Shown here piece after piece: positions 50,661 through 52,966 of a DNA stretch of 64,000 nt (positions are counted from its first letter, which is position 1; the number at the start of each line of letters is the position of its first letter). The DNA comes from Alicyclobacillus herbarius DSM 13609. Lineage in GTDB: Bacteria; Bacillota; Bacilli; Alicyclobacillales; Alicyclobacillaceae. The stretch is from contig NZ_AUMH01000009.1 in the NCBI RefSeq assembly GCF_000430585.1, positions 1 through 64,000 of the forward strand, given 5' to 3'. The position numbers were made by a program, and so were the translations under genes. The notes below the pieces were generated by a model. That model saw only the letters and a program-made list of their open reading frames with translations. It ran no database searches and was not told the DNA's origin.

Positions 50661-50990
50661 ATGCCCTGCCCCGAAGTCAAGACCGGTCATGTGGAGATTC
50701 CGGGCGAGGACTATATCCGCATTCAGCAAAGTGTCGACCAAGGGCGCAACCTGTGGCGGCTCGACCCCATACGCACGGTGCAAATGGTCGGGAGTCAGCA
50801 CCTGGGCTTCCGGCCCAGCGATGTCTATACGTTCGTGGAGCGCTATCGGGATCCCGGATCTGGATTGCAGCACGCCACGGTCCGCGTTCAACACGGACCG
50901 TGCCGCTATATCGTGACCCTCTACCAACCGGTCAAGCAGGGAGCACGTGGCATTTGGGTGGTACACCATGTGGAGGATGTCACAACCTGA
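50661..50990 (+). CDS. Unknown protein, probably all-beta
   Basis: 109 residues, not recognised. Alternating hydrophobic strands (TVQMVGSQHLGF, DVYTFVERYR, HATVRVQHGPCRYIVTLYQPV, GIWVVHHVEDV) suggest a small beta-barrel or sheet. No signal peptide. ATG at 50661 follows a good GAAGGAG. It is divergent from the SDR gene and just upstream of the structured RNA region before zwf. Confidence 0.7.
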   Translation: MPCPEVKTGHVEIPGEDYIRIQQSVDQGRNLWRLDPIRTVQMVGSQHLGFRPSDVYTFVERYRDPGSGLQHATVRVQHGPCRYIVTLYQPVKQGARGIWVVHHVEDVTT

Positions 50991-51108
50991 CTCCGCATGA
51001 ACGTACCCGTGGGTGGTGTCTCCATCATCGGGGATGCGAAAAACTGGTGCCGGACGTCGAGACTGGTTACAATATATTTCAGACACAAAGTAAAAAATGT
51101 GCGTCCGG

Positions 51109-51329
51109 CTTTCCGGACAACCGCTAAGAGTGCATGTCCGGAAAGGGGTTAGGTAAGCCCCAAGCAGTGCGAGGAAGCTAGCCCAAAATGCGTACCGAGC
51201 GTACGTCTTTTGGTACGTGAGGGAGCATTTTGGGCGCTGACGAAGCAATGCGCCGGGGGGCCTGGTCGCCAGTGGCGACCGTTTAGGCCGGGCGACAGCC
51301 CCGGAGTTCTGACCCCTTTCCGGACAACC
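51109..51329 (+). ncRNA. Highly structured RNA element upstream of zwf
   Basis: The 368-bp gap before zwf holds no gene but folds strongly. An 18-bp closing helix pairs 51135-51152 with 51309-51326 (all Watson-Crick except one G-U). Inside, an 11-bp hairpin stem pairs 51181-51191 with 51225-51235. A further 6-bp helix (51253-51258 with 51299-51304) encloses a two-part hairpin (51259-51263/51285-51289 and 51264-51270/51274-51280). CTTTCCGGACAACC is repeated at 51109-51122 and 51316-51329, and the first copy can pair with 51135-51145 in competition with the closing helix. A -10-like TACAAT at 51068-51073 could start it. It ends about 30 bases before the zwf ATG. The family is not recognised. 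Confidence 0.75.
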
Positions 51330-51358
51330 TCACCCTATCTTGCAAGGAATGGAGAGCT

Positions 51359-52966
51359 ATGATGAACAACCCTTCGCTTTCATCGCAAACTCAGTCCGGT
51401 ACGCCAGAGCACGTGTTCATCCTGTTTGGTGTCACGGGAGACCTGGCGAAGCGTAAATTGATGCCGGCCTTGTACGCTCTTTACCGCAACCATGATCTCC
51501 CCGCCAATTATGCGGTGGTGGGTGTCGCTCGCTCGCGCATGGATGATGCTGGCCTACGCCAGTTGCTGGTTGATTCCCTGCACCAGTACGCGCGCTATGA
51601 CATGGACGAAGACAAAGATTTCGAAGCGTTTGCCAGCCGCTTCTCCTACTGCCCGGTCGACGTCAGTCAACCGAGTCAGTTCGTCCGCTTGAAAGAGCAC
51701 GTCGAAGCGGTCGAGGCACGCTATGGCTTGCATGCTCAGAACCGGATGTACTATCTGGCCATGGCGCCCGAGTTTTTTGGCCCCATCGCCACCCAGCTGC
51801 AGGCATCCGGCCTAACCAATACCCGCGGGTGGAAAAGGCTTATCATCGAAAAACCGTTCGGTCACGACTTTGCCTCCGCGCAGGCGCTGAACGAAGAGCT
51901 GCGCAAGGCGTTCGACGAAGAGGAGATCTACCGCATCGACCACTACCTAGGCAAAGAAATGGTGCAAAACATCGAGGTTATCCGGTTTGCCAACTCCATC
52001 TTTGAACCGGTGTGGAACAACCGTTCCATCGCCAGCGTGCAAATCACCTCGAGTGAAACCGTCGGCGTCGAGGACCGCGCCTCCTACTACGAGAAAGCCG
52101 GCGCTCTGCGTGACATGGTTCAGAACCATATGCTGCAGATGGTCATGATGATTGCCATGGAACCGCCCAGCCGCCTGAAGATGGAGGCCATCCGCGACGA
52201 AAAGGTGAAGGTTCTGCGCTCCCTGCGCCGTTACAACGCCAATGAAGTACGGCACAATGTCGTGCGCGGTCAGTACCAATCCGGTTGGCTCGGGGACAAA
52301 GCGGTGCCCGCGTATCGCGAAGAGCACGGTGTAGCACGAGACTCGAAGACCGAGACGTTTGTCGCCGCGCGTCTGTACATCGATAACTTCCGTTGGGCGG
52401 GCGTTCCGTTTTATATCCGTACAGGGAAACGGATGAGCGTTAAGGCCACCGAAATCGTCATCCAGTTCCGCTCCATGCCCAAAAACCTGTACTTCAACCG
52501 GTCTGGCGATTTAGGTCCAAATCGCCTGGTTATCCGGGTCAACCCAGCCGAAGGTCTGTCGCTTCACCTCAACGCCAAACGCCCGGGTACCGACGAGACC
52601 ATCGTGCCGATTCAAATGGAGTTCAGCCAACAGACCGACGCGTCGCCGGAGGCGTACGAACGACTCTTGTTTGATGCCATGTGGGGTGACTCCACATTCT
52701 TCACCCGCTGGGATGAGGTCTCCCTGGCTTGGAAATGGGTCGATCCGATTGCTCAAGCGTTCGCCGCGGATGCCGAATTGCCATTGCACCCGTATGCGGC
52801 CGGCAGCTCCGGTCCGTTGGCCGCAGACGCCTTGCTGCAAGAGGATGGGTTTGCCTGGTGGCCGGTGTATGGGGAAGACCGTCCGGAACCGATGCCGAAT
52901 CAGGTCGAAGGAAACCCAAAAGCGATTCCGGATCGTCAAACGGTTGAGGCGGTAACCCGCGCATAA
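51359..52966 (+). CDS. zwf: Glucose-6-phosphate 1-dehydrogenase
   Basis: First step of the oxidative pentose phosphate pathway. The 535-residue protein has the cofactor motif FGVTGDLAKRKLMPALY, the substrate-binding signature RIDHYLGKE and EKPFGHD. PFYIRTGKRM is a further conserved segment. The C-terminus carries about 25 extra residues (PEPMPNQVEGNPKAIPDRQ). Two adjacent ATGs (51359, 51362) follow GGAATGGAGAGCT. It is preceded by the structured RNA element, which may control it. No 6-phosphogluconolactonase gene is in the window. Confidence 0.95.
   Translation: MMNNPSLSSQTQSGTPEHVFILFGVTGDLAKRKLMPALYALYRNHDLPANYAVVGVARSRMDDAGLRQLLVDSLHQYARYDMDEDKDFEAFASRFSYCPVDVSQPSQFVRLKEHVEAVEARYGLHAQNRMYYLAMAPEFFGPIATQLQASGLTNTRGWKRLIIEKPFGHDFASAQALNEELRKAFDEEEIYRIDHYLGKEMVQNIEVIRFANSIFEPVWNNRSIASVQITSSETVGVEDRASYYEKAGALRDMVQNHMLQMVMMIAMEPPSRLKMEAIRDEKVKVLRSLRRYNANEVRHNVVRGQYQSGWLGDKAVPAYREEHGVARDSKTETFVAARLYIDNFRWAGVPFYIRTGKRMSVKATEIVIQFRSMPKNLYFNRSGDLGPNRLVIRVNPAEGLSLHLNAKRPGTDETIVPIQMEFSQQTDASPEAYERLLFDAMWGDSTFFTRWDEVSLAWKWVDPIAQAFAADAELPLHPYAAGSSGPLAADALLQEDGFAWWPVYGEDRPEPMPNQVEGNPKAIPDRQTVEAVTRA

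Follow-up and report, generated by a model that had tools for sequence, protein, structure and literature searches.

The folded element upstream of zwf in Alicyclobacillus herbarius is very likely a copy of a modular MITE family with a probable IS1182-like partner

The large folded element upstream of zwf in a 64,000-nucleotide stretch of the Alicyclobacillus herbarius DSM 13609 genome (contig NZ_AUMH01000009.1, positions 1 to 64,000; hereafter the window) is, with little doubt, a copy of a MITE family mobilised by an IS1182-like transposase and not a dedicated regulator of zwf. The element belongs to a dispersed repeat family whose fold covaries; we found sites without it, target duplications flanking its copies in relatives, and an IS that shares both its ends and its targets. 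From these sequences we infer that the transposase of this IS moves the MITE. A false lead, a riboswitch-like RNA of zwf, is replaced by a mobile family that can be defined in Alicyclobacillaceae and in a family sister to it.

The gap upstream of zwf measures 368 bp, the preceding frame ending at 50990 and zwf, which encodes a glucose-6-phosphate dehydrogenase with G6PD domains, occupying 51359-52966 on the plus strand. No plausible gene appeared in the frame listing for 50990-51359, so that the preliminary description of a gene-free interval without a plausible protein was correct. A composite miniature element of 202 bp, delimited by our model R1 together with the family ends, lies at 51130-51331, the plus strand being the family's defined orientation, and zwf starts 28 bp 3' of it. 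On the plus strand R1 matched 51130-51282 (E 8e-27), and on the minus strand the match spans the full palindrome, 51130-51331. The ends of the window copy agree with the family ends GTGC.TGTCCGGAAAGGGG...CCCCTTTCCGGACAACCTC. Its left terminal inverted repeat, GTGCATGTCCGGAAAGGGGTTAG (51130-51152), aligns with the family ends and with the IS ends described below, and its right one, CTGACCCCTTTCCGGACAACCTC (51309-51331), has CGGACAACCTC in common with the right end of the IS. Between them are the core (B) of a 155-bp unit (51153-51258), containing a covarying hairpin whose helix is supported by compensatory changes, and an inserted 46-nt hairpin module, C (GGCCTGGTCGCC...GACAGCCCCGG, 51259-51304), which recurs elsewhere in sister copies. 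Most simple copies have no module C and read GCGCCGGGG followed by AGTTCTG at that point. Just upstream, at 51099-51124, we found what the preliminary description had not noticed, a further hairpin belonging to this family, a minimal one that consists of ends only (GTGCGTCCGGCTTTCCGGACAACCGC). A 14-nt direct repeat (51109-51122 and 51316-51329) is shared by the two elements, and the segment 51135-51145 can pair either with the 3' arm of the minimal hairpin or with the right arm of the composite element, which gives two alternative leader structures. All these features, as well as a promoter-like sequence at 51064-51075 (TGGTTACAATAT), are given on the plus strand; the promoter role of the latter is presumed, and a scan for the sigma-70 consensus returned no site.

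The helices proposed earlier were all present in the window. In the closing helix (51135-51152 with 51309-51326) 17 of the 18 pairs are Watson-Crick and one is G-T, while the internal helix 51181-51191/51225-51235 (GCCCAAAATGC/GCATTTTGGGC) is paired at 11 of 11 positions and the helix 51253-51258/51299-51304 at 6 of 6. The assertion that such complementarity is beyond chance also held: the minimum free energy of 51100-51340 as RNA was -130.4 kcal/mol, whereas shuffled sequences averaged -91.7 (z = -8.3), and none of 200 shuffles folded as well. The minus strand folded nearly as well (z = -6.2), as a palindrome should. As the first reading had suspected, no known RNA family accounts for it. The Rfam 15 covariance-model scan of the window gave no family, with one chance match to sR32 (14.9 bits, cut-off 40), and the scan of the relatives' copies gave nothing credible (6S, OLE, raiA, riboswitches, HEARO etc.). 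A hammerhead-like CUGANGA in the core of the window copy proved unconserved (other copies have CGACGA) and was dropped.

When single-stranded, the 155-bp unit folds as a long bulged hairpin, and this fold is maintained by compensatory changes while the sequence has diverged. Among 27 aligned copies, 97% of the cells across 45 pairs hold standard pairs, and 14 of the 45 pairs show changes on both sides (0 of 500 shuffles); the signal was lost when the partners were slid. In a set including the diverged copies of another genome, G038, both-sided changes occur in 16 of 42 pairs with 97.6% of the cells paired, and a measure of further pair types was not above its shuffles in this set. The compensatory changes are spread through the 155-nt fold in four lineages. 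Covariation, suggested at the outset as a check of a conserved leader, was therefore strong, but conservation at zwf was not found, and the covariation belongs to a mobile repeat family.

This element is one of many dispersed copies, a fact beyond the reach of the first reading. Copy counts given here come from sequence searches of genomes. In its own genome 44 blastn matches to 51090-51340 were obtained, many of them to different parts of the query, and the copies that we printed have a common outer hairpin, AGTGCGTGTCCGGAAAGGGG...CCCCTTTCCGGACAACCTC, with differing interiors. The basic unit is the 155-bp imperfect palindrome. Blastn detected the element in 15 of 61 relatives, and a covariance model of the 155-nt unit matched in 17 of 59 genomes of the order, with at least 51 matches in each of G018 and G038, and 37, 36, 32 and 18 in others; thus, five genomes carry at least 30 copies each. 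The carriers belong to Alicyclobacillaceae and to its sister family within the order, and include Sulfoacidibacillus thermotolerans, Alicyclobacillaceae bacterium I2511 and several MAGs. Alicyclobacillus shizuokensis (G001) has a partial copy, and the 155-nt model found no full-length copy in this congener or in a second one, G002. G038 holds a diverged version in about 100 copies, many of them nearly identical, which shares the architecture and the duplications of the family. Searches of viral, plasmid and phage collections yielded no copy, so carriage by phage or plasmid is without evidence. Frames of at least 300 nt do not cross 73 of 82 copies. Relative to the flanking frames, which were picked by length alone so that the counts are approximate, 26 copies are parallel, 22 antiparallel, 15 convergent and 13 divergent; there is no orientation bias, and such placement speaks against a strand-specific cis-regulator.

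Mobility is indicated by empty sites and by target duplications. In both A. shizuokensis and G002 the region upstream of zwf aligns on both flanks and the element is missing, the empty site reading TGGTTACAATAT...CAGACAGAGATCCACACCCTATCCTGCAAGGAA.CGGAGAGCTATGATGAAC, with the promoter-like and ribosome-binding sequences retained. In the window, the composite element (51130-51331), preceded by the minimal hairpin (51099-51124), is added between these conserved stretches; the congeners have neither. These empty sites refute a conserved regulator of zwf. Perfect 5-bp target duplications flank 56 of the 87 copies with intact ends, compared with a mean of 6.6 and a maximum of 15 in 2000 trials with shuffled partners, and the excess is limited to exactly five positions. 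The targets (TATAA, TTAAA, TTATA, TAATA, TAAAA and similar) are mostly TNNNA, usually within C-TNNNA-G. Around the window copy there is no recognisable duplication (TAAGA vs ACCCT). The elements of this genome look old, and they are probably no longer moving, since clean duplications are frequently missing from its copies and the partner transposase has only a 32% match there. A separate observation concerns remnants of 20-27 bp (L245, L232 and L233), which consist of joined element ends only with the perfect 5-bp duplications intact and fit a palindrome-induced internal deletion.

A probable autonomous partner of the MITE, judged by its ends and targets, is an IS1182-like element. A DDE_Tnp_1 search disclosed an intact IS in G038 (L263; one copy) with ends GAGCGTGTCCGGAAAGC and a TATTA duplication, and 15 of the 16 terminal bases of its end are identical to the left end of the MITE. 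Its transposase matches Pfam DDE_Tnp_1 and DUF772, both above the cut-offs, and its best NCBIfam match is IS1182 NF033551 (E 2.2e-31); the score of 109 bits does not reach the curated cut-off of 270, hence the name 'IS1182-like'. By protein search of the order we found 16 near-identical IS copies of 1,636 bp in G063, Alicyclobacillus fastidiosus (L284-L308; plasmid NZ_CP104068), which suggest recent activity. Their left end is GAGCGTGTCCGAAAAGC and their right end GCTTTTCGGACAACCTC, and 14 of the 16 are flanked by perfect 5-bp duplications at TATAA, TTAAA, TTATA, TAATA, TATTA, TATAT and ATAAA, the same set of targets as for the MITE. The left/right asymmetry, CGTG vs CAACC, is also common to this IS and the MITE (GTGCGTGTCCGGAAAGG / CTTTCCGGACAACCTC); their interiors are not. 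G038 also contains a further IS lineage, whose ends are of the other type, GAGGTTGTTCAAAAAGC, and agree with the MITEs of that genome, and G003 holds a decayed IS copy. No close homologue of the transposase was found in the A. herbarius genome. A Tn3-family transposase was considered as the source of the 5-bp duplications and rejected, as no family-type ends flank a Tn3 gene (one full gene in G003, a pair in G038); the sole pair of family ends near such a gene is a complete MITE-sized copy. The examined MITE loci contained no larger elements with family ends, only MITE-sized pairs and one double copy.

According to the proposed mechanism, the IS1182-like transposase would act in trans by recognising the terminal inverted repeats of the MITE, and insertion into 5-bp A/T-rich targets (consensus C-TNNNA-G) would duplicate the 5 bp. 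Smaller hairpin modules, C, D and E, would have been gained inside the unit over time and the composite forms amplified; in A. herbarius a composite copy beside a minimal hairpin copy would have landed between the promoter-like sequence and the ribosome-binding site of zwf. The features by which a MITE is recognised were found here: inverted repeats, a length below 500 bp, target duplications (in the family), filled and empty sites, no internal transposase gene, a mostly intergenic location and ends that match those of an autonomous element.

More unusual for such an element is the nesting of modules, which occupy various positions. In the window copy module C separates the core from the right arm. 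Among the sister copies, L027, L028 and L029 have it within the core on the 3' side of the GTACG hairpin, and L030 has it on the 5' side. In L156 it stands directly within a minimal outer hairpin, flanked by a TTTAA duplication, and in L034, L037, L039 and L045 it sits in the loop of another C. Several copies have a hairpin variant, D, in place of the C loop. Several loci of G018 and G003 carry a relative of C whose position is constant, and module E (starting with ATAGACCTTCATGCCGCTG, about 70 nt, with hairpins of its own) replaces part of the left arm, also at one constant position, in five G018 loci (L091, L101, L129, L141 and L214); these constant positions indicate that composite forms were amplified. 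Modules may have entered by insertion or by replacement through recombination between copies. The 31-33 nt hairpin with which module C begins (GGGGCCTGGTCCCCAGTGGGGACCGTNNAGGCC) also occurs alone, apparently in intergenic positions, in G011 and G028 (L065, L076, L077 and L063); these genomes represent a different genus of the family and lack the 155-bp unit.

Three other readings deserve consideration. The region is well folded, it has a conserved promoter-like sequence on one side and a start codon on the other, and 51109-51119 and 51316-51326 compete for 51135-51145 in an attenuator-like layout; one might thus see here a riboswitch-like or attenuator leader RNA dedicated to zwf. Such an RNA should not, however, be missing at zwf in both congeners, occur in tens of copies at unrelated loci and stand in either orientation to genes, and Rfam holds no match to it, so we regard this reading as very improbable. 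The preliminary description, which offered a 5' regulator of zwf or an independent RNA, was right about a large, non-coding, folded element; the dedicated regulator is contradicted by the congeners, and an RNA of a single locus by the tens of copies per genome with their target-site duplications. It is scarcely credible that a Y1 (RAYT/IS200) transposase moves the element as a palindrome of the REP/REPIN type. Although the element is palindromic, intergenic and of high copy number, and its own genome gave three Y1_Tnp matches, the best of these adjoins a reverse-strand tnpB-like frame with no repeat copy there, and the matching ends belong to an IS with a DDE transposase. The 5-bp target duplications are also present here, and to our knowledge Y1/HUH transposition makes none; together with the IS ends, they rule out Y1_Tnp as the mobiliser.

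A more demanding question is why the fold is kept. The internal fold is conserved beyond what transposase binding alone needs, and this counts against the MITE account. It could be that the 155-nt unit is a functional structured RNA, an sRNA or a transposition structure, which spread for that reason with mobility as its vehicle only. Compensation at 16 of 42 pairs in four lineages, including inner helices unneeded as transposase ends, and invariant unpaired blocks, such as GAGTTCT, would agree with this; against it, both strands fold, copies lie in both orientations, the two congeners have no full-length copy, and related repeats are known for long stem-loop transcripts to which no dedicated function has been assigned by experiment (PMC2229807). 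We consider it unlikely. Also unlikely is the idea that the fold itself is used, either by transposition, as a folded single strand, or in the form of a stable RNA, and that module C is independently mobile, inserting into the larger element and even into its own loop, so that the family grows by hairpin nesting. A copy of a MITE family mobilised by an IS1182-like transposase remains our preferred reading.

Elements of this kind are known, and the family, its partner and the nested modules appear to be new; in the literature searched we found no described repeat of Alicyclobacillus. The Correia/NEMIS elements of Neisseria are likewise small palindromic MITEs with 5'-3' terminal pairing, in a short form and a longer one with a 50-bp internal sequence, and RNase III processes their folded transcripts (PMC2229807). 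They differ in their TA target and ends of about 25 bp, compared with the 5-bp TNNNA duplication and other sequence found here, and the Alicyclobacillus family, unlike them, has several internal modules that can stand in for one another. ERIC/IRU of enterobacteria is also a long conserved imperfect palindrome, intergenic and present in tens to hundreds of copies, which affects mRNA when transcribed (PMC10969869), but its termini are TA, its sequence is different, and the reviews consulted name no IS partner, whereas one was found here. The pneumococcal BOX resembles our family in its modular boxA-boxB(n)-boxC structure, folded transcripts and repeats inserted in one another (PMC3049150); here, instead of tandem boxB, hairpin modules are nested, and they can lie at several places, a C even within another C. 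In Bacilli, bcr1-bcr3 of the Bacillus cereus group are MITE-like chromosomal repeats, often in UTRs, with a TTTAT motif linked with insertion (PMC6542083, PMC3446304); bcr1 is reported as confined to that group and is set beside our family by description. With the IS1182 family, terminal repeats, 5-bp duplications and the NF033551 match are shared, while the partner scores far below the cut-off and the MITE has only the ends in common. Many bacterial MITE families have no transposase source named; here a probable one is. The result is a system with many copies, known targets, a known partner and nested modules, which may be used to test why compensatory change keeps MITE folds and how internal modules are gained.

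A separate problem is the consequence for zwf. Judging from its position between the promoter-like sequence and the ribosome-binding site, the composite element is probably transcribed in the zwf 5' leader, where it may influence zwf expression. Related repeats are often transcribed within UTRs and are able to alter mRNA processing (PMC3446304, PMC10969869), and altered processing of zwf mRNA by the window copy may be offered as a lead only. Elsewhere in this genome (C1, about 87336-88268; L028) a C-bearing copy lies directly 5' of rpmI and a small copy just 3' of rplT, so that ribosomal-protein genes are bracketed by copies.
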